DNA of 64,000 nucleotides from Phycisphaerae bacterium (GTDB lineage Bacteria > Planctomycetota > Phycisphaerae > UBA1845): NCBI GenBank assembly GCA_024102815.1, contig JAGFJJ010000048.1:186001-250000 (forward strand). The letters are read 5' to 3'. The notes beneath the pieces are model-generated. The model saw only the letters and a program-made list of their open reading frames with translations, was not told the DNA's origin and made no database searches. Position 1 is the stretch's first letter; each line of letters begins with the position of its first letter. Of this stretch, positions 8,061 through 43,563 are shown one piece after another. The position numbers and the translations under genes were made by a program.

Positions 8061-9733
8061 TGTTGCAGGTCGGGATCATCTGCGGCTACCTGGCGCTGCT
8101 GCTGCTCCTGGGTGTGGCGAGCAGCCGGTTCTTTCGCGGCACGGCCAGCGACTACTTCCTGGCTTCGCGGGGCATCGGGTCATTTCTGCTGCTCATGTCG
8201 CTATTCGGTACGACCATGACGGCGTTCGCGATGGTCGGATCGACGGGCGAGTCCTTCAAGGCGGGGATCGGCGTTTACGGGCTGATGGCGTCGTGGTCGG
8301 GGATCATCCACGCAGCGGTTTTCTTCCTGATCGGCATCAAGCTCTGGTCCTTCGGCAAGCGGCATGGCTACGTAACGCAGATTCAGTTCTTCCGCGATCG
8401 GTTTGAGTCGGACAAGCTGGGACTGATCCTGTTTCCGGTGCTCGTGGGGCTGGTCATCCCCTACCTGCTCATCGGCATCATGGGGGCGGGTGCAACGATC
8501 GAGAAGGTCACCGAGGGCGCGTTTCCGAGTGTGTTCCCGGCGTATTTCACCGGCCGGACCGTCGTTGCGGCGGGAGCGGTCCCCTACTGGCTGGGGTCAC
8601 TGGCGATATGCCTCGTCGTTTTGTTTTACGTTTTCCTGGGCGGCGTGCGCGGCACGGCCTGGGCAAACGCCTTTCAGACGCTCGTATTCCTGTTCATCGG
8701 GTGCTTCACTTTTGTGCTCATTGCGGACAAGTTCGGCGGTGTGCGTAACGCCACGGCCATGGTCCAGGAGCATAACCCGCATTACCTTCGTCGCACGGTC
8801 GACGCAGATGATCCGCTGACTCGCTACCAGGGCGATCTCAAGGTGCACGGTCAGCGCCTGGCCAAGTGGGAGGCCGCGCCGCCCGAGGAGCGCGGACCGA
8901 AACCGGCGGAGGTGGAGCGTCCCCACGGATTCACGCAGCTCCACTTCCTTACGTATTTCTTTATCCCGCTGAGTGTGGGGATGTTCCCGCATCTGTTTCA
9001 ACACTGGCTTACGGCGCGGTCGGCGCGGTCGTTTCGATTGAGCGTCGTCGCCCATCCGCTGTTGATTCTGCTGGTATGGGCGCCTTGTGTGATGATCGGC
9101 GTGTGGGCGACGTCGGCGATGATCGACGGCAAGCCCGTGATCCCGTACGGATTCACCAATCCCAATGCCGTGCTGGGCAAACTGGTGGCCGAGCTCACCA
9201 CGCCGGTGCTGGGCGGATTTCTCACGGCGGGCATTCTCGCGGCGATCATGTCCTCGCTCGATTCGCAATTTCTGTGCATCGGGAGCATTTTCACGAACGA
9301 CATCGTCGCCCACTACATCAAGCATGACCGGATCGGCGACCGCCAACGGGTCTTTCTCGGCCGGTTGTTCGTCATCCTGATCGTGGCGGCGACGTACGCG
9401 TTGGCGCAATTCCGCCCCGGCGGGGTGTTCACGCTGGGCGTGTGGTGTTTCAGCGGATTCGCCAGTCTGTTTCCCCTGGTCTTTGCGGCGGTCTATTGGC
9501 GGCGTGTGACCAAGGCGGGGGCGTACGCGTGCGTACTGACGGCGGCGGCCACGTGGATCTGGCTCTTCGCCGAGTCGGGATTCGCCGGTGATGACAACTA
9601 TTTGTTCCTGGGCATGATGCCGGCGGCGACGATGGTGGCCGCCTCAACGCTCGCATTGGTGGTTGTGTCTCTGTTGACCCGCCCGCCGTCGGCGGCGACG
9701 ATCGAGAAGTTCTTCGGGACGGTGCGGGCATAG
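8060..9733 (+). CDS. Sodium:solute symporter (SSS family)
   Basis: A 557-residue polytopic membrane protein with about 12-13 hydrophobic helices. It begins with a helix after LQVGIICGYLALLLLLGVASSRFF and carries the family's N-terminal signature around DYFLASRGIGSFLLLMSLFGTTMTAF. LGGVRGTAWANAFQT matches the TM5-6 region, and GILAAIMSSLDSQFLCIGSIFTNDIV is the classic SSS signature in the second half, containing the sodium-site serines. A hydrophilic loop of roughly 70 residues (about 240-300) separates the two halves. The substrate cannot be told from sequence; related proteins carry organic acids, sugars or amino acids. It is the distal partner of the DUF3311 protein and probably moves the product or precursor of the cluster across the inner membrane. 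Confidence 0.9.
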   Translation: MLQVGIICGYLALLLLLGVASSRFFRGTASDYFLASRGIGSFLLLMSLFGTTMTAFAMVGSTGESFKAGIGVYGLMASWSGIIHAAVFFLIGIKLWSFGKRHGYVTQIQFFRDRFESDKLGLILFPVLVGLVIPYLLIGIMGAGATIEKVTEGAFPSVFPAYFTGRTVVAAGAVPYWLGSLAICLVVLFYVFLGGVRGTAWANAFQTLVFLFIGCFTFVLIADKFGGVRNATAMVQEHNPHYLRRTVDADDPLTRYQGDLKVHGQRLAKWEAAPPEERGPKPAEVERPHGFTQLHFLTYFFIPLSVGMFPHLFQHWLTARSARSFRLSVVAHPLLILLVWAPCVMIGVWATSAMIDGKPVIPYGFTNPNAVLGKLVAELTTPVLGGFLTAGILAAIMSSLDSQFLCIGSIFTNDIVAHYIKHDRIGDRQRVFLGRLFVILIVAATYALAQFRPGGVFTLGVWCFSGFASLFPLVFAAVYWRRVTKAGAYACVLTAAATWIWLFAESGFAGDDNYLFLGMMPAATMVAASTLALVVVSLLTRPPSAATIEKFFGTVRA

Positions 9734-9769
9734 AACGCGATTGGGGGTGCAGGGTCCGGTACGCGGATC

Positions 9770-10264
9770 ATGCCTCCGGTTCTGAATGCGAACATGGCTG
9801 ACGCGTATCTCTATCATCGTGCCGTGCAGTTCTCCGACACCGACATGGCCGGCGTGCTTCACTTCTCCAACTACTACCGCTACATGGAGGAGGCCGAGCA
9901 CGCCTTCTGGAGGTCGCTCGGTGAGAGCGTCGTGGTGAAGAACGGCGACCACGCCGTGAGCTGGCCGCGGGTCGCCACGGGCTGCGAATACTTCGCCCCG
10001 GCCCGTTTCGAAGACGTGCTCGATTTGGCCCTGACCGTTTCGCACGTGGGCAACCGCTCAGTGAGCTACGAGATCGAGTTCCGCCGCGGCGGCGAGAGGA
10101 TTGCCATCGGTCGGACCACGGCGGTGTGCTGCACGATGTCTGGCGGCAATTTCGGCCCGACGGAGATCCCGCCGAGCCTGCGCGAGAAACTCGTCAGCGC
10201 GGCCGGCGTCCCCGAAGACTCCCCGCCGCCAGCCACCGAGTCATTGACCGGCCCATCCCAATAA
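9770..10264 (+). CDS. YbgC/4HBT-type acyl-CoA thioesterase
   Basis: A 164-residue hotdog-fold thioesterase of the 4-hydroxybenzoyl-CoA thioesterase superfamily. The active-site segment FSDTDMAGVLHFSNYYRYMEEAEH matches the YbgC pattern, with the catalytic aspartate in TDMAG. A second in-frame ATG (9794, MADAYLYHRA) is an equally plausible start. The last 35 residues are a proline/serine-rich tail not needed for the fold. Family members hydrolyse aromatic or short-chain acyl-CoA thioesters. Being 37 bases behind the symporter in a cluster with a predicted 4-hydroxybenzoate source, it may act on an aryl-CoA or aryl-carrier thioester, but YbgC proteins have broad specificities. Confidence 0.85.
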   Translation: MPPVLNANMADAYLYHRAVQFSDTDMAGVLHFSNYYRYMEEAEHAFWRSLGESVVVKNGDHAVSWPRVATGCEYFAPARFEDVLDLALTVSHVGNRSVSYEIEFRRGGERIAIGRTTAVCCTMSGGNFGPTEIPPSLREKLVSAAGVPEDSPPPATESLTGPSQ

Positions 10265-35251: not shown

Positions 35252-36955
35252 TCAAAGCCCCAGTACGTCGACACCCTGCTCGAATACGATGTCCACGGGA
35301 ATGCCTGCGGCGTTGACCCGGTCGAGATCATCCTGGAGCACATCGGGCATGTTCCCGGCAACTTCCATCCACTTCTTGGCGCCCTCGTAGTCCCCGTCGC
35401 CCTGCATTCGCAGGATCTTGGCGGCGAGCGATTCCATGGCACTGCGCATGCGCTCCTGGTCCACCCGGTAGCGACCCGTCTGCTCATCGCGCGAAAACGC
35501 TCCGCGCTCGGCGAAGTAGTTGAAGCGAACCATGTTGGCCCGGCCGTGGGCGCTGGCCGCACCGAACCGCACGGAGCGGAAGATTCCCGCCATGAAGGTC
35601 ACGTAATGGTCCATCAGATTCGAATTCGGCAGTTCGCCCTGCTCATGGAGCCGGGTGATCATGTGCAAGCCCAGGATGTCCGCCTTGCCCTCCTCCAGGG
35701 CTGACTGCTGATCTTTGAGTGCCTCGCGCACCGTGCCCTTGCCGTTGATCGTGTTCTTGATCCCCAGTCCGTGAGCCACCTCGTGAAACATCGTGTCCTC
35801 GAAGAAGGCATCGAATGTGATGTGCTTCCGCTGGTCCTCGGCAATGAGCAGGTCAGCAATGGGGACCAGAATCTTGTCGAACTTGGCCCGCATGGCGTTC
35901 TTCAGTTGCAGGCGGCGCGTGCCCTTGCGAAGCTGCACCTCCTCGTCGTTGGGCAGGTTGATGGCGATGGTCTTGGCCCCGGCGTTGCAATCGCCGGCGT
36001 AGTAGACCACGTCATAGGCGTTGAGGTCGGAGTCTGTTCCAGGCGACTCCTGCTTGTACTTGTCCTCGACGGGCAGAGATCGCTGCAAGTCCGGGAGCAT
36101 GGCCGCGTAACGCGCCAGCCGCTTGCTCCACTCCTTGTCCTTGATGAGCACGTATGATTCGTAGGACGCCTTGTATCCGAACATCCCATCTTCGTAGGTC
36201 TCGATCGGGCCGATGACGATGTCCAGCGTATTATCCTTCATGTCCAGCCAGGCGAAATCCGACGCCCGATAGTCGTCGGTCAGCAGGGCGTCGGCTCGAA
36301 GAAGCAGGTACTGCCGGAAGCCTTCGTCCTCGGCGATCGCGGCTGCCTGGCTCAATTTGTGGCCCGCGGCGAGAGCGTAGAGCATGAACTGCCGGAAGTA
36401 GGGCACGGCCTCCAGTTGCCCCATCTGATCACGGCGGATGATGGTGTAGGGGCTTCGAAAGGACTCTGCCGCCGCCGGGTCAAGCTGGGCGAGGTGTTGC
36501 TCGAATTCCTCTTTGGACATGTCCGCCGGATAGAAATTCGCCCCCAACGGCTTCGGCCCGACACCGGGAACGAACGGCTGGTTGTCGTTCAGCCGGTCCC
36601 ACGGACCGTAGTTGATTTCGGCGAAGCGCCGCAACGCGGGATTATCCAGCGACGACAGCAGTGCCGTCCTGTCTCCGTATGCCTGCCACCAGAACCCCTC
36701 ATCCATCTGCCGGGCGGCATCGATGAGCAGCGGGAGCATTCGTCTCTGGTTATCGCTGAGTCCGCTCAGGTCGGCCGTGAGGCGCACCGTCGCGTATTTG
36801 TCCACCAGCGCCGAAGCGTCATCCGTCTTCGCCGATCGGTCCTTGCCGCTCATAGAGACCCCACTTTGTCGTTGCCCGCAGCCGGAAGTCAGAATGATCC
36901 CAACCAAAGCCACCACCCAAGAACAAATCTGTTTACGCCCGCTGAACAAAGCCAC
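35252..36955 (-). CDS. Lipoprotein metallopeptidase, M49-like
   Basis: A 567-residue protein starting with a signal peptide and lipobox (GIILTSGC), so it should be a membrane-anchored lipoprotein. The metal site is FHEVAHGLG followed by EEGKADILGL. This resembles the M49 (dipeptidyl peptidase III) architecture, whose members have HELLGH and an EECRAD motif. Here the first motif is a plain HEXXH. The N-terminal part has the NYGPWDRLNDNQPFV segment seen in bacterial M49-like peptidases, with the region GVGPKPLGANFYPADMSKEEFE. The neighbours are a membrane protein of unknown function and the phosphatase/ATPase pair, with gaps of about 30-50 bases. I am confident about a zinc peptidase and less about the precise family. 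Confidence 0.82.
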   Translation of the reverse strand: MALFSGRKQICSWVVALVGIILTSGCGQRQSGVSMSGKDRSAKTDDASALVDKYATVRLTADLSGLSDNQRRMLPLLIDAARQMDEGFWWQAYGDRTALLSSLDNPALRRFAEINYGPWDRLNDNQPFVPGVGPKPLGANFYPADMSKEEFEQHLAQLDPAAAESFRSPYTIIRRDQMGQLEAVPYFRQFMLYALAAGHKLSQAAAIAEDEGFRQYLLLRADALLTDDYRASDFAWLDMKDNTLDIVIGPIETYEDGMFGYKASYESYVLIKDKEWSKRLARYAAMLPDLQRSLPVEDKYKQESPGTDSDLNAYDVVYYAGDCNAGAKTIAINLPNDEEVQLRKGTRRLQLKNAMRAKFDKILVPIADLLIAEDQRKHITFDAFFEDTMFHEVAHGLGIKNTINGKGTVREALKDQQSALEEGKADILGLHMITRLHEQGELPNSNLMDHYVTFMAGIFRSVRFGAASAHGRANMVRFNYFAERGAFSRDEQTGRYRVDQERMRSAMESLAAKILRMQGDGDYEGAKKWMEVAGNMPDVLQDDLDRVNAAGIPVDIVFEQGVDVLGL

Positions 36956-36985: not shown

Positions 36986-38161
36986 CTATTTGCCCGCCCC
37001 CACCAAGAACGGGAGCACGATGGAAACGGCGATCAGCACGATAATGATCCACTCCAACACTTCCATGCGCCGCGTGCTCTGCTGGTCGGAGATCTTCTGG
37101 TAAATGCTCTCCAGCGTGTTGAGCTTGCGCATGATGCTGCCGTCCCAGTCGTCAATGTGCAACCGCCCGACCGCCAGACGGTAGACCCGGGCCAGATACT
37201 GGTCTCCCAGCAGCTTGAGGGCATTGTTCACGCCCTCGAAGAGCAGGGCGCTGTCGAGCTGAAGCTCGGCCACGCGACGCTGATCGGCCGCGCGCGTCAC
37301 CATGGGACGCAGCCTTTGCCGGGTCCGGCGCAGGAAGGTTTCATAGGCTTCGTCGAGGGCGCTGTCGAGCTGTTCATCCAGGTAGCGCATTTCCAGCAGC
37401 TCGACGTTGGCGTATTCCAGGACGGCCAGCACGTCGTCCATGTCCATACCCATAAGCAGCGCCGCGTTCCAGTCGATCAGCGTGAGATCATCCTCGCCGA
37501 AGGCGATTCGGCTGCCCAGTGCGTCGTCCACCATCTGCGTGGAGAGAGCTTCCTGCTCCGCACGAAGGATGCGGGCGAGCGTTGCGGCGTGGCGTGATGC
37601 GACCGCGTCAGGTGCCTCCCGCGCCTCGAACTGCTCGATCTGGTAGACGACGTAGTCCTCGACGAATTCCGAGACCATCGGCCGCTGAACCGCCGGGGCA
37701 ATCGTTCGGAGCAGATCGTCCACGCACCGTCTGGCATGGGTAAGAAGAATCGCATTGTCGTACAGCGTGTCCGAGAGGCCGAGCAAATCGTCGAGTGGCC
37801 CAGCCAGCGGAAGACGGTACGCCGCGGAAATCGCCCCGAAATCGTAGATCACCAGGTCGACGGCCCCCTCCGTTCGCCACGGACCCAGTTCAAGCCGCTC
37901 GCTGGCGACGGTGTGCCGCAACGGCGCGGGACGGTATTCGAAGTAGCTCGGGGTCTTTCGCTTGCGGCGGACCGTGGCCCGCTGGCTGGCCTCGGCGATC
38001 AATCGCTGGGCCTCGTCCAGGCGAATCGACAGCCCCACGTCGTGAGCAAGAAGCACGTGGCACGCGCCGCGCGCGATTCGCGGGGCGCTTGACGGGCTTG
38101 ATACCGAGGGCGGGATGTTATCTCCAACCGGGTCCGCCGACATGATCGGCAGCGCCTCCAC
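36986..38161 (-). CDS. RMD1/Sif2-like (DUF155-like) membrane protein
   Basis: A 391-residue protein with a long helical middle and a C-terminal membrane helix (EWIIIVLIAVSIVLPFLVG) preceded by the segment LESIYQKISDQQSTRRMEVL. This arrangement recalls the DUF155/RMD1 family, in which a cytosolic domain is followed by a terminal TM helix. The early part contains HVLLAHDVGLSIRLDEAQRLI and LVIYDFGAISAAYRLPL, which also fit. Family members are mitochondrial or bacterial proteins of unknown biochemical role, linked in eukaryotes to mitochondrial translation. A later in-frame ATG at 38143 (MSADPVG) is an alternative start. The gap to the M49-like gene is about 30 bases on the same strand, so the two may be co-transcribed. 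The assignment is by pattern only. Confidence 0.65.
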   Translation of the reverse strand: MEALPIMSADPVGDNIPPSVSSPSSAPRIARGACHVLLAHDVGLSIRLDEAQRLIAEASQRATVRRKRKTPSYFEYRPAPLRHTVASERLELGPWRTEGAVDLVIYDFGAISAAYRLPLAGPLDDLLGLSDTLYDNAILLTHARRCVDDLLRTIAPAVQRPMVSEFVEDYVVYQIEQFEAREAPDAVASRHAATLARILRAEQEALSTQMVDDALGSRIAFGEDDLTLIDWNAALLMGMDMDDVLAVLEYANVELLEMRYLDEQLDSALDEAYETFLRRTRQRLRPMVTRAADQRRVAELQLDSALLFEGVNNALKLLGDQYLARVYRLAVGRLHIDDWDGSIMRKLNTLESIYQKISDQQSTRRMEVLEWIIIVLIAVSIVLPFLVGAGK

Positions 38162-38195: not shown

Positions 38196-39161
38196 CTACC
38201 AGTCGAGCACGTAGGCGAAAATCAAGGGCGCCACAATGGTGGCGTCCGATTCGACCACGAAGCGCGGCGTATCCGCGGCGAGCTTGCCCCATGTGATCTT
38301 TTCCGTGGGATAGGCCCCGGAATACGAGCCGTAGCTGGTCGTGCTGTCGCTGATCTGGCAGAAGTAGCCCCAGAACGGCACCTGCTCCTCCAGGTCGATG
38401 TTGACCAGGGGCACGACACAGATGGGGAAATCACCCGCGATCCCCCCGCCGATCTGGAAGAACCCGATGCTCGCCGAAGCTGAAGCTTCCTTGTACCACC
38501 GGGCGAGCTCGACCATGTAGTCCACGCCGTACTTCAGGAAACGCCCATGCGGAAGCGTGCCCTGAATCAGGTACGCCGCGAAACCGTTGCCCAGCGTCGA
38601 GTCCTCCCAACCGGGCACAAACAACGGAAGGTCGCGTTCAGCCGCCGCCACCAGCCAACTGTCCTTCGGATCAATCTGATAATGCTTCTTGTAGACGCCG
38701 TCGCGAATCGCCTGGTACATGAACTCGTGCGGGAAGGTCCGGGTTTCGCTCTTTGCGGCGGCCTGCCAGCGCTCCAGCAGTACATGCTTGATCCGCAGCA
38801 TGGCTTCCTCTTCCGGAATGCACGTGTCCGTCACCCGGGCCAGACCGCGATCGTAGAGTTCCATCTCCTGTTCCGGCGTCAGTTCGCGATAGTTCGGCAG
38901 GCGGACGTAATGATCGTGGGCCACCAGGTTGTAGAGATCTTCCTCCAGGTTGGCTCCCGTGCAGCACACGGCGTGGACCTTGTCCCGGCGGATCATTTCC
39001 GCCAGGGAAAGGCCCAGTTCGGCCGTGCTCATCGCGCCACCGAGCGTCACGAACATTTTGCCGCCGCGGGCCAGATGGTCCTTGTAGGCCTGGGCGGCGT
39101 CCTTGGTGGTGGCGGCGTTGAAATGGCGATAGTGGTGGTCGATAAACTCGCTGATCTTCAT
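38196..39161 (-). CDS. Deoxyhypusine synthase-family protein
   Basis: A 321-residue NAD-dependent enzyme of the deoxyhypusine synthase family. MFVTLGGAMSTAELGLSLAEMIR and VHAVCCTGANLEEDLYNLVAH are the nucleotide-binding segments. GFFQIGGGIAGDFPICVVPL follows, and ITWGKLAADTP holds the catalytic lysine at residue 293, which sits in the same WGK context as in the eukaryotic enzyme. The length suits bacterial homologues. Eukaryotic enzymes modify eIF5A, which bacteria lack. Characterised bacterial relatives act on free polyamines, for example as homospermidine synthases. Here the small-molecule route is the more likely reading. No other polyamine gene is seen close by; the gene stands alone with gaps to both neighbours, and the amidoligase operon begins about 160 bases away. 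Confidence 0.9.
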   Translation of the reverse strand: MKISEFIDHHYRHFNAATTKDAAQAYKDHLARGGKMFVTLGGAMSTAELGLSLAEMIRRDKVHAVCCTGANLEEDLYNLVAHDHYVRLPNYRELTPEQEMELYDRGLARVTDTCIPEEEAMLRIKHVLLERWQAAAKSETRTFPHEFMYQAIRDGVYKKHYQIDPKDSWLVAAAERDLPLFVPGWEDSTLGNGFAAYLIQGTLPHGRFLKYGVDYMVELARWYKEASASASIGFFQIGGGIAGDFPICVVPLVNIDLEEQVPFWGYFCQISDSTTSYGSYSGAYPTEKITWGKLAADTPRFVVESDATIVAPLIFAYVLDW

Positions 39162-39325: not shown

Positions 39326-40033
39326 CTAGGACGAAACAACATCGCACAGTGAGCCGGCAAGTAACCTGCGAAGCCATCGCCATGTCCGCGAATCGCCGAG
39401 TGGAAAACCCTGGTTTACTTCCAACTCCACGCCAACGTATCGCGGGGTGTCCAGCTCCCGTCGCAACCAGGTCGTGAACCCGTCGGCTTTTCCGAGGTAG
39501 GGGTAGTTCCTCCGGACGCGAAGGATTTCATTCCGGGCGCGGATCGAGGCGCGCCATTCGTGACAGAACCTCCGCTCGCCGAGGCGGCCGGGGTCGTACA
39601 GCAGGCCCACATCCGCTTTTCGCGCTGCACCGTCAAGCACCGGGGTAAAGGTGTGCACGGAAAGATGCAGAACATCGCCCGCTTTTCGAAGTGCGCGTCG
39701 CAATGCCGCAGCCACGGCTTTCCGGTGCGGCGCGTAATAGTGTTGCAGCACTCGGGTACGCTCGGTGTCGTCGAGCTCCCGGCTGACGATCGAAAACAGG
39801 CTTGGATGGTGCGGCGACCGGTTTAACTCGACCAGCAATCGCGATACGTGGGAGTAGAACAGCGGGCAATCAAGACGCTTGGATAGTTCTCGCGCGAGAA
39901 ACAGCGCCCCCGGGTCGTACCCACGGTGGGAATTCAGCAGCGAATCCTGCCCGGCGAACAGCGCGCGATAGCGGGCGGGTATAAAGTTTCCCCCGTGCTC
40001 GCAACTGACCACGGCCGATCTAATCCGCGACAC
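39326..40033 (-). CDS. N-formylglutamate amidohydrolase-like protein
   Basis: A 235-residue protein of the N-formylglutamate amidohydrolase family (HutG type, zinc hydrolase). It opens with VVSCEHGGNFIPARYRALF, in which SCEHGGN is the family's first motif; LNSHRGYDPGALFLA is the second. LVELNRSPHHPSLFS and HLSVHTFTPVL complete the set, so the metal-binding histidines and glutamate are present. The length is close to normal. The start lies 14 bases inside the end of the GCS2 gene (overlap 40020-40033), a sign of translational coupling. In histidine degradation this family frees glutamate from N-formylglutamate. No histidine genes are near, and the operon context instead suggests hydrolysis of an amide made by the ligases next to it. 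Confidence 0.88.
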   Translation of the reverse strand: MSRIRSAVVSCEHGGNFIPARYRALFAGQDSLLNSHRGYDPGALFLARELSKRLDCPLFYSHVSRLLVELNRSPHHPSLFSIVSRELDDTERTRVLQHYYAPHRKAVAAALRRALRKAGDVLHLSVHTFTPVLDGAARKADVGLLYDPGRLGERRFCHEWRASIRARNEILRVRRNYPYLGKADGFTTWLRRELDTPRYVGVELEVNQGFPLGDSRTWRWLRRLLAGSLCDVVSS

Positions 40034-41261
40034 GCAGCATCCGTCCCTCCGCCAGGCATTGCGAAAGGCGGCGGTACACCGACACCATAGCGTCTCGGTC
40101 TTCGCCCTCGCCCAGCAGCCTGATGATGCGGCGTGCCAGACATCCTTCCTTCATCATGACATCCAGTGCGGCCGCCTCCGCCGTATCCGCCGACCCCAGT
40201 GGAAGAACCTGATCGCGGAGATGCTCCCAGAGCATTCCCGCAGCAAGTGCCCCGCCACCGAAACCGAAGAGCGCAAGATATCCGGCGTCCTCGATCGAGG
40301 TTTCGTCCGCGTGCCGGATACAATTCAGAAGGATCGGCTGGAGTCGCTCTATGCCCCATCCCCTCTGATCGTCGTACGAACACCATCGTTCCTCGACCAG
40401 CGCCCTCAGCGTCTCCACGATAAGCCGCGTCATGGCCACGTCGGCCAGCGGGCACTCCTGCACGTCGAGGACGCGAATCTCGATCGTATTTCGATCAAAC
40501 CGAGCGATCGCGCCGCGAGCATTGGCCCACTCGAACTGCAATACGCCCTCCGGATCGAAAGGCGCCAGATCGCGGTAGATCCGCTGAAGAATCTCGCGCT
40601 CGTAATCCTCTCGTGTAAACACCGGCTCGGGAATCACGGCTCCCGAAACCGACGGAATCCGTCGGGCGTTCTGGCGATAGACCTCCAGCCGTGCATCGCG
40701 AAACGACGTCCGCGCCCCGTCCAGCATGGGCGAGCTCGCCGCCAGTGCCGGCAGAATGGGCAGCACGAGCCGGATGGCCGCGTGAAGCCGCCCGAACTCC
40801 TCATCGCCGCAGAACGGCAGATTCAAATGCGTTGATTGCAGGTTCGACCACCCGTGTCCCCGACAATCGAAGATGCGATCGAATCCCGCGTAGACCGGGC
40901 TGTATTCGTGGGGCCAGAGCCGCGTCTCGCGGAACGGATCCATCCACGGATGCGCCCCGGTGGGAAGCAGTATCGCGTCCCACTCCGCGAGCATTTCGTT
41001 GATGCGCTGAACGTCGTGCTGGAATGGACCCGCCAGCCCGTCGAGCCTCTCGGCAGGCGCTCCCGTCTTCAACTCGATTACGTGGAGTACGAGTTCGTTG
41101 GACCAGTTCAGCGGCCCGACTTCCACCTCCGACTCGAACGCACCGGCCATGGCGTGAAGCACGCGATCCGAAATCGGACACACGTCCAGCGTCCGCCGGT
41201 CGACGATCATGTACTCCAGCTCGACGCCGAAGCGCTCGAAGAGGTGCCAGGATTCACTCAT
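40020..41261 (-). CDS. GCS2-type glutamate-cysteine ligase-like amidoligase (YbdK-like)
   Basis: A 413-residue protein of the carboxylate-amine ligase family (COG2170, GCS2 fold). FGVELEYMIVD holds the metal-binding glutamates near residue 13-16. The conserved segments CRGHGWSNLQSTHLNLPF, LEVYRQNARRIPSVSGAVIPEP and TIEIRVLDVQECPLADVAMTR all fit the family, as does the length. Family members ligate an amino acid to a carboxylate with ATP and are relatives of gamma-glutamylcysteine synthetase; YbdK shows weak activity of that sort. The ATG overlaps the stop of the ATP-grasp gene (ATGA at 41258-41261), and the end overlaps the amidohydrolase. Cysteine or another amino acid may be the acceptor. 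Confidence 0.9.
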   Translation of the reverse strand: MSESWHLFERFGVELEYMIVDRRTLDVCPISDRVLHAMAGAFESEVEVGPLNWSNELVLHVIELKTGAPAERLDGLAGPFQHDVQRINEMLAEWDAILLPTGAHPWMDPFRETRLWPHEYSPVYAGFDRIFDCRGHGWSNLQSTHLNLPFCGDEEFGRLHAAIRLVLPILPALAASSPMLDGARTSFRDARLEVYRQNARRIPSVSGAVIPEPVFTREDYEREILQRIYRDLAPFDPEGVLQFEWANARGAIARFDRNTIEIRVLDVQECPLADVAMTRLIVETLRALVEERWCSYDDQRGWGIERLQPILLNCIRHADETSIEDAGYLALFGFGGGALAAGMLWEHLRDQVLPLGSADTAEAAALDVMMKEGCLARRIIRLLGEGEDRDAMVSVYRRLSQCLAEGRMLRVAD

Positions 41262-42730
41262 GTCGTTGCCTTGGCCACGCCGTTACGACGGCTTTGAATG
41301 CGCTTGAGAAAGACGCCCATGATACGATCATACAAGGTGTCACCGAGAATGCGGTCTTCGTAGCCGGCGTCCACGTTGGGGTTATCGTTGACCTCGATCA
41401 CGCAGACCTCGTCCCCAAACTGCTTGACATCGACGCCGTAAAGACCGTCCCCAATAGGCTTGGCCGCGCGGAGCGCCGTCTTGAGCACCACCTCGGGAAC
41501 CTGGTCCAGTGGGACGGCTTCCACGTCGCCGTAGCGCACACCCTGCTCGCCGGTCTCGGTGATCTGCCAGTGCCCGCCTGCCATGAAGTACTTGCACGCG
41601 AAAATCGCTTCCCGTTCCAGGATGCCGATACGCCAATCGAACGGCGTGGGCATGAACTTCTGGGCGACGATCAGGTCGGACTTTTCCAGCAGACGGTCGA
41701 CGCAGGCCTGGAGCTCGGCTTCGTCGTTCGCCTTGAAGACGCCCTGAGAGAATGAGCTGTCCGGCTGCTTGAGGATGCAGGGCAGGCCGATCTCCGCGAC
41801 GATCCGGTCCCGGTTGTCCTTGTGTACGACCAGCGTCTGCGGAATGGGCACCTTGTACCGCCGCAACATCTCTGCCAAATAGACCTTGTTCGTACAGCGA
41901 GCGATGGAGTCCGGATCGTCGATGACCACCAGACCCTCGGCCGCCGCCCGCCGGGCGAAGCGGTAGGTGTGGTGATGGACCGCAGTCGTCTCGCGAATGA
42001 ACAGGGCGTCGAACTCTGCAATGCGCCCGAAATCCTCCTGGTCGATGAGTTCCGTATCGATCCCCAGGCGCCGCGCCGCGCTGACAAACTTGCGGATCGC
42101 CCCTTTGTTTGACGGCGCCTTTTCCGCGTCCGGATCAAGCAGAATAGCCATGTCGTAGGACGCCGTGCTGCGGCGCTGACGGGGGAGGCGGTTGTTGCGG
42201 AAGAACTCCGTCGCCGATTGAATCACGAAATCGCGATGCCCCTCGGGAATGTCGTTCCCAGCAATGGGACCGATGTTCCTCAGGACCCATTCCTCCTCCA
42301 CGCGCGCAAAATCGGCTCGCAGCAGCGGCGCCTGGAAAGATCGGAAGAGGCTCTGACTCAATTCGTCGTATCGTTTGGCCAGGTTCTTGCCGAAGTAGAC
42401 CCGCAACGTGAAGAAATCCGATCGCAGTGGGCGCAGGCTTCGCTGGATCAACTCGTCGAGATCGTCCGCGACCACGCGGGCGATTGCCAGCGTCTTCATG
42501 TCCTGGATCGTGGTGATACTGGGAAGCGGCTTTTGTCCGCGAGCCATGGCCAGCAGTGAAACGTAGTAGCCCGTACTCTGGTATCGATAGGACCGGCAGA
42601 GATTGAAGACCCGCAGATTACGCTGTTCGCTGTATTGGGGGTCCGTCAAGTAGGTTCGGGCTGCCACCACGGGCACACCAGGGATGTGCAGCGACCAGTT
42701 CTTGGGCTGGTTGACGACAATCAGATTCAA
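41258..42730 (-). CDS. RimK-like ATP-grasp ligase with RLAN N-terminal domain
   Basis: A 490-residue ligase. Residues 1-150 match the RLAN (RimK-like ATP-grasp N-terminal) pattern, shown by VVAARTYLTD and NLCRSYRYQSTGYYVSLLA. The ATP-grasp domain lies at about 240-480, with RCTNKVYLAEMLRRYKVP, LKQPDSSFSQGVFK (ATP-binding glycine-rich loop), KFMPTPFDWRIGIL and IEVNDNPNVDAGYED (metal-binding E-x-N). The start is TTG at 42730 because it overlaps the upstream stop as TTGA, and the residues that follow, LNLIVVNQPKNWSL, are the conserved opening; the longer open frame upstream is a shadow of the peptidase gene. RimK-type enzymes add glutamate or similar amino acids to proteins or small molecules. 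The overlap with both neighbours argues for a single transcript. Confidence 0.9.
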   Translation of the reverse strand: MNLIVVNQPKNWSLHIPGVPVVAARTYLTDPQYSEQRNLRVFNLCRSYRYQSTGYYVSLLAMARGQKPLPSITTIQDMKTLAIARVVADDLDELIQRSLRPLRSDFFTLRVYFGKNLAKRYDELSQSLFRSFQAPLLRADFARVEEEWVLRNIGPIAGNDIPEGHRDFVIQSATEFFRNNRLPRQRRSTASYDMAILLDPDAEKAPSNKGAIRKFVSAARRLGIDTELIDQEDFGRIAEFDALFIRETTAVHHHTYRFARRAAAEGLVVIDDPDSIARCTNKVYLAEMLRRYKVPIPQTLVVHKDNRDRIVAEIGLPCILKQPDSSFSQGVFKANDEAELQACVDRLLEKSDLIVAQKFMPTPFDWRIGILEREAIFACKYFMAGGHWQITETGEQGVRYGDVEAVPLDQVPEVVLKTALRAAKPIGDGLYGVDVKQFGDEVCVIEVNDNPNVDAGYEDRILGDTLYDRIMGVFLKRIQSRRNGVAKATT

Positions 42731-43563
42731 TCGTCCGCGCTCCCCGGGGCGGGCGACACGGCGCCGCCATTGGTCCCCGCGCTCGGTCCGCGTTCCAGAA
42801 TAAGCAGGTTCGCGTCGTACGTCACAATACCCAGCAGGATCGCGCCGAGCAGGCGATCCATGCCCACCGAATAGACATGCGTCGTGGCCATGGGATTGGG
42901 ATGCATCGGATCCGCCACCATCACCTGTCGATGCTTCCGGTCGTATCCGCACAATACCACGAAATGCCCCACGGGCGCCCCGCGAATGTCATCGTCGTCG
43001 CACTTCGGGCCGAATTCCCGGATGCCCCGATACAGATACGTCGAACTCAATCCCGTGAGGATGGGTACGCCGCGTGTCAGGTACTTTCGGATCAGCGCCG
43101 CGGTCAGGTCCTCGAACAGTATCTTCCCGCCCAGCTTCAGGTACTCCAGATAGCCCCCTGTGGCGACTTGCAGGCGCTTATCCGATTTCGCCTCCGATTG
43201 GGCCTTGAGCTTCGCCGCGATGTCCGTCCCGGGCTGCGCGAACCACGTCGGATCGAACAACTGAAGGTTGTAGGTGTAGATCGATGCGGAGTACCCGCGC
43301 CGCAACGCGTGAACAGCCAGGAACACCGCCAGCGTGCCACCCTCTTCCAGCCCCGTGACTTCGGCGATGACATTCTTCAAGGGAAGCGATTCACCGAAAT
43401 AGTCGTACACGGCGTGAAGGCAAGTCGGACCGCACGTCACGTCGTCCGGCTGGGGAAGGATATCCAGCGGAAGGTGGCACGTTTCCTCTCCGTCGTTTGC
43501 ACCGCCGTTGGCCGCGGCGTCCGAATTCGACATCGCGGCGCGGACTTCATGGGACATCGTCAT
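42727..43563 (-). CDS. C39-like cysteine peptidase
   Basis: A 278-residue papain-like peptidase related to the C39 (bacteriocin-processing) family. The catalytic centre is visible: Q38 as oxyanion residue, C44 in DDVTCGPTCLHAVYDYFG, H200 in GAPVGHFVVLCGYD and D218 in VMVADPM. It lacks an ABC transporter and is not membrane-bound, so it is not a double-glycine leader exporter. The first 25 residues are low-complexity. Start ATG 43563 (MTMSHEVRAAMSNS); internal methionines at 43557 and 43533 are alternatives. The last four bases overlap the TTG of the ATP-grasp gene. It is divergent from mgtE with 164 bases between. Within the operon it may process the peptide or protein modified by the ligases. 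Confidence 0.87.
   Translation of the reverse strand: MTMSHEVRAAMSNSDAAANGGANDGEETCHLPLDILPQPDDVTCGPTCLHAVYDYFGESLPLKNVIAEVTGLEEGGTLAVFLAVHALRRGYSASIYTYNLQLFDPTWFAQPGTDIAAKLKAQSEAKSDKRLQVATGGYLEYLKLGGKILFEDLTAALIRKYLTRGVPILTGLSSTYLYRGIREFGPKCDDDDIRGAPVGHFVVLCGYDRKHRQVMVADPMHPNPMATTHVYSVGMDRLLGAILLGIVTYDANLLILERGPSAGTNGGAVSPAPGSADD

Follow-up and report, generated by a model that had tools for sequence, protein, structure and literature searches.

A compact cassette of two predicted amide-bond ligases and two predicted hydrolases, conserved across phyla, with a possible role in peptide amide metabolism

The window (the whole stretch of DNA analysed, 64,000 nucleotides) carries four overlapping genes on the minus strand, here called A to D, encoding a predicted papain-like hydrolase, an ATP-grasp ligase with an RLAN domain, a GCS2-fold ligase and a predicted metal hydrolase of the FGase family (Table 1). 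They are an ordinary member of a widespread, already existing, uncharacterised cassette. The four genes almost certainly serve one pathway, since their order is kept across at least 13 bacterial phyla. With a probability of about 0.45, A, B and C, joined by D in the loci that have it, would encode a self-contained pathway for the synthesis, trimming and recycling of a small peptide amide of glutamate type with a gamma-glutamyl cap. A literature search on the gene set turned up neither a product nor a phenotype nor an assayed enzyme, and the RefSeq names in Legionella are only generic (RimK family protein, glutamate-cysteine ligase family protein, N-formylglutamate amidohydrolase).

The cassette in the window and its relatives

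The four reading frames and three overlaps described in the initial annotation are the same in the sequence, and its family assignments (C39-like peptidase, RLAN-RimK ATP-grasp, GCS2 and N-formylglutamate-amidohydrolase-like proteins) are confirmed by Pfam for all four proteins. The mechanical open reading frame of B begins upstream, at GTG 42952; the TTG at 42730 is favoured by the family alignment. RLAN, GCS2 and FGase are each represented by one gene in the host genome, all at the cassette locus.

Table 1. Genes, domains and overlaps of the cassette (positions in the window)
Feature	Position	Strand	Description or basis
Gene A	42727-43563	(-)	278 aa, predicted stand-alone papain-like cysteine hydrolase of C39_2 type
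Gene B	41258-42730	(-)	490 aa, RLAN domain and RimK-type ATP-grasp ligase, TTG start
Gene C	40020-41261	(-)	413 aa, GCS2-fold carboxylate-amine ligase
Gene D	39326-40033	(-)	235 aa, predicted metal hydrolase, FGase family (N-formylglutamate amidohydrolase-like), GTG start
RLAN domain, B residues 24-171	42218-42661	(-)	PF14401
ATP-grasp part, B residues 192-480	41291-42157	(-)	structure alignment to ArgX, LysX, RimK
Catalytic Cys44 codon of A	43434-43432	(-)	papain-type tetrad member
A/B overlap, TTGA (stop TGA, start TTG)	42727-42730	(-)	sequence
B/C overlap, ATGA	41258-41261	(-)	sequence
C/D overlap, 14 bp	40020-40033	(-)	sequence

RLAN is found in 93 of 392 genomes of Planctomycetota, the phylum of the host. 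The neighbourhoods of the stronger RLAN matches gave a B-centred sample of 80 planctomycete loci with B, the window included. A is present in 62 of these loci, C in 66 and D in 45, and in nearly all cases the genes lie on a single strand in the order A-B-C-D. As an independent start, 84,980 species genomes were scanned with an alignment of C, and at least 588 stretches matched. Of the best 80 of these, which come from named genomes, 79 contain B, 75 contain A and 59 contain D, and the A-B-C-D order holds here too; several of the exceptions to the full gene set are located on short contigs. Median intergenic gaps in relatives are 2.5 bp for A-B, -4 bp for B-C and 1.5 bp for C-D, and B and C form a single reading frame in four loci (L074, L075, L076 and L078). 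Among the named loci, A, B and C occur together in at least 13 phyla. The proposal that the four genes are one unit is thus supported by order and short gaps, and the gene-order comparison suggested with it finds the homologues together in relatives, in B- and C-centred loci alike. Cross-phylum order and short gaps exclude chance clustering or an annotation artefact.

In a tree of A, B and C combined, mapping the phylum labels takes 19 changes, against a minimum of 12 and a mean of 41 after shuffling, which suggests within-phylum inheritance mixed with transfer or loss. Pairwise identity values are correlated among the four proteins (Mantel r 0.60-0.82, reached in 0 of 300 permutations), a correlation to which organismal ancestry contributes in part. 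A scan of IMG/VR for phage carriage gave no cassette. The sole candidate for plasmid carriage, Legionella adelaidensis 'plasmid 27' (L206, NZ_LR134436.1), holds B-C-D plus fur and dapF; the contig is probably chromosomal and its plasmid label wrong, and plasmid carriage was rejected.

No other neighbour recurs across phyla, which rules out a larger conserved operon; the flanks are shared only among members of one genus or family. The cassette is compact and self-contained, with three core genes, one frequent accessory and no carrier gene. The accessory is D. FGase is entirely absent from 8 of 14 genomes whose cassette is without D, which marks D as accessory; among the remaining six genomes, at least four have a clear D homologue relocated elsewhere. 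Several complete genomes also lack D, so the step assigned to it cannot be essential: D is frequent in the cassette and dispensable.

Downstream of the cassette, the gene at 38196-39161 (-) encodes a protein of deoxyhypusine-synthase fold, whose best NCBIfam match, homospermidine biosynthesis, lies under the cut-off. It was rejected as a cassette member, being present in no other B-centred locus. The gene at 36986-38161 (-) encodes a protein of 391 aa with a C-terminal hydrophobic segment and no Pfam match. Homologues of it are found no more than about 5 kb from the cassette at 11 further loci, most of them planctomycete. The end of the protein, LEWIIILLI, presumably recalls DUF155/RMD1 proteins. 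A putative lipoprotein matching peptidase family M49 (dipeptidyl-peptidase III-like) is encoded at 35252-36955 (-).

The two ligases

B matches RLAN (PF14401, 3.3e-48) and, above the cut-off, RimK (PF08443, 1.9e-7) in Pfam. Residues K282, K321, E446 and N448 are invariant in the family alignment, and N43 and G54-YYVSLLA-R64 are conserved in the RLAN part. The closest structures to the ATP-grasp part of an AF2 model are ArgX, LysX and RimK (VIA-align Z 26-28, rmsd 2.1-3.0 A). B shares with them the ATP-grasp fold and the Mg/ATP residues E446, N448 and K321, and differs in carrying the RLAN domain as an extra and in the absence of the RimK/LysX substrate loop RSN-x-x-R/H-GG. In an alignment to RimK of E. 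coli and LysX of T. thermophilus, B reads HWQI......YG.vE at the loop position, where Y381, M383 and W388 are invariant and form a signature of the B subgroup. Against the NCBIfam RimK family model TIGR00768, B scores 67.9, below the cut-off of 143.4 bits. In some planctomycetes of one family, the RLAN and ATP-grasp parts lie in two separate frames (L079, 7750-9444; L080, 4306-6205).

These relationships bear on the main rival to a metabolite pathway, the modification of a protein tail. A housekeeping protein would receive amino acids in alpha and gamma linkage from B and C, which A and D would trim, in the way that RimK and RimB act on ribosomal protein S6. RimK relatives act on proteins or protein-bound carriers, which speaks against a metabolite pathway, and a housekeeping target would leave the neighbourhood without trace. 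The structures closest to the ATP-grasp part of B were solved with such partners (RimK with RpsF, ArgX/LysX with LysW), and a cassette made up solely of two writers and two erasers would fit a writer/eraser set. There is also a precedent in P. fluorescens, where the RpsF tail added by RimK is trimmed by RimB (PMC12239564). However, the substrate loop of RimK and LysX is missing in B, and no target or carrier gene is conserved near the cassette. Protein modification is regarded as possible but doubtful.

C matches GCS2 (PF04107) at 1.7e-27, with 97 bits against a cut-off of 21, and aligns with E. coli YbdK. A GhExE motif (GVELE; G12, E14, E16), H145-x-N147 and E261-x-R263 are invariant. With the GCS2/YbdK ligases, which also include plant GCL and EgtA, C has in common GhExE, EIR-x-x-D and the ASSP...G...R region. 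Unlike YbdK-type ligases, it adjoins B in 79 of 80 sampled loci (the best 80 of at least 588 stretches). All eight matches of C to NCBIfam models of GCS2 type, GshA, EgtA and YbdK included, are far below cut-off, the best being TIGR02050 (57.5 against 176.4). Since it scores under every NCBIfam GCS2 cut-off, C represents a GCS2 subgroup of its own.

The two predicted hydrolases

A matches Peptidase_C39_2 (PF13529, 4.7e-10), and its papain-type tetrad (Q38, C44, H200, D218) is invariant in 26 homologues and again in 46 sequences. In a Foldseek search with the AF2 model (pLDDT 89), C39 peptidase domains come best, followed by the pseudomurein endoisopeptidase PeiR and the phytochelatin synthase Alr0975 (E 2e-4). 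C39 double-glycine peptidases are fused to an ABC transporter for the leader peptide, whereas A has no further domain. D matches FGase (PF05013, 3.5e-23; 83.3 against 28.9 bits) and aligns over its full length with 2odf (E 7e-40). Nearly all catalytic residues are kept, with E12, H13, H123, H127 and R138 invariant.

The phytochelatin synthase match of A and the GCS2 fold of C raise the question of a thiol pathway like that of glutathione and phytochelatin, in which C would form gamma-Glu-Cys, B would add a third residue and A would act in the manner of phytochelatin synthase. The genome of the window, with one GCS2 and no convincing GshB (sole match 25 bits, E 3e-5), is consistent with this. 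Yet ordinary C39 domains are the closest folds to A, and at least 8 of 14 cassette genomes tested, a Nitrosomonas MAG included, have strong GshB matches (E < 1e-50). Since a true GshB coexists in several cassette genomes, the cassette is not simply a glutathione substitute, and replacement of glutathione synthesis is disfavoured as a general role. Together with the position of C far under the GshA, EgtA and YbdK cut-offs, this co-occurrence makes a pure glutathione role unlikely, and the thiol pathway as a whole is considered improbable.

Absence of a conserved carrier gene

The small substrate protein that the initial annotation had proposed to look for did not emerge: around 144 cassettes, no small open reading frame is conserved beyond close relatives. 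No dedicated precursor gene was thus found in these neighbourhoods, which argues against a ribosomal precursor peptide or a LysW- or Pup-like carrier. The LysW system has a small carrier gene by its ligase, whereas no LysW-like carrier lies beside B around these cassettes. The amidoligase survey of Iyer et al. in 2009 reportedly described operons of ligases and peptidases whose product is unknown. Pup-PafA pupylation resembles the cassette in its GS-fold ligase, a fold shared with C, PafA being related to GCS2 (PMC2588565). It differs in its Pup-like small gene, of which no counterpart is conserved around the 144 cassettes. Other GS-fold ligases occur in peptidase neighbourhoods without Pup-like genes, and peptide synthesis was predicted for them (Iyer et al. 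2008, PMC2588565).

Alternative arrangements of RLAN-RimK genes

In the sampled planctomycetes, B pairs with A and C (and D), or with GNAT, or stands alone. A fusion of GNAT to the papain-like domain DUF3335 lies beside a B-type ligase in five genomes (L073, L081-L083 and L091), and a plain GNAT-like open reading frame beside an RLAN-RimK gene in L072; some other RLAN-RimK genes have no obvious partner nearby. In L068, an open reading frame that looks SET-domain-like by eye (9316-9960, +) directly follows a cassette-free RLAN-RimK gene. DUF3335 is often fused to GNAT according to a classification of papain-like peptidases (PMC10318531). The GNAT-DUF3335 layout resembles the cassette in placing a B-type ligase next to a papain-like domain; it differs in having GNAT in place of GCS2 and no adjacent FGase.

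DUF3335 is above cut-off in none of 32 cassette genomes and in 5 of 11 RLAN genomes without a local C. One weak match aside (E 3.5e-4, not convincing), the same 11 genomes gave no cassette-type GCS2, and no genome of this sample contains both the GCS2 and the GNAT-DUF3335 form. Four of the five GNAT-DUF3335 genomes belong to one family, so this exclusivity could reflect shared ancestry; it is a lead, not proof. It seems possible, and is proposed only tentatively, that the RLAN-RimK ligase and a papain-like hydrolase are the fixed core of a peptide-amide pathway with an interchangeable amine-capping enzyme, either GNAT (acetyl) or GCS2 (gamma-glutamyl, with FGase). GCS2 would then replace, with a gamma-glutamyl cap, the acetyl cap that GNAT would provide in the other layout.

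A fusion of GNAT to nitrilase is also encoded close to B, at five or six loci of planctomycetes; in L092 it sits between C and D. As an accessory by the cassette in a few planctomycetes, this fusion, with the set of two ligases and two hydrolases, favours a compatible solute or storage dipeptide like N-acetylglutaminylglutamine amide, where B and C would build a glutamyl amide osmolyte and A and D would degrade it. Neither an asparagine-synthase-like gene nor any other conserved gene accompanies the cassette, however, and such a role is hardly likely.

Proposed pathway

Peptide synthesis or trimming, or the attachment of amino acids to a protein, is a predicted function of the cassette here as in the initial annotation. 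With its pair of ligases and pair of hydrolases, and no redox enzyme, transporter or carrier, the set suggests the making and trimming of amide bonds. GCS2 enzymes couple an amine to glutamate through the gamma-carboxylate, and RimK-type ligases attach amino acids by alpha-amide linkages. Acyl groups are cleaved off or passed on by papain-type enzymes, and N-acyl-glutamate is hydrolysed by FGases. On the basis of these family reactions, a small gamma-glutamyl-capped peptide metabolite is favoured. In this pathway, C would transfer phosphate to a carboxylate, most likely that in the gamma position of glutamate, and link this group to an amine. B would use ATP to activate another carboxylate and attach an amino acid by an alpha-amide linkage. 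A would cleave or transfer one of the bonds made by C or B through a cysteine acyl-enzyme, and D may hydrolyse an N-acyl-glutamate-type bond. The steps would presumably run in this order, on an acceptor that is probably a small molecule.

At about 50% identity, the cassette has stayed whole across at least 13 phyla and must therefore be useful to its hosts. If the capping enzyme is indeed interchangeable, the GCS2 layout, with its spread of at least 13 phyla, would be the source of a metabolite family with gamma-glutamyl caps that is new to the literature.
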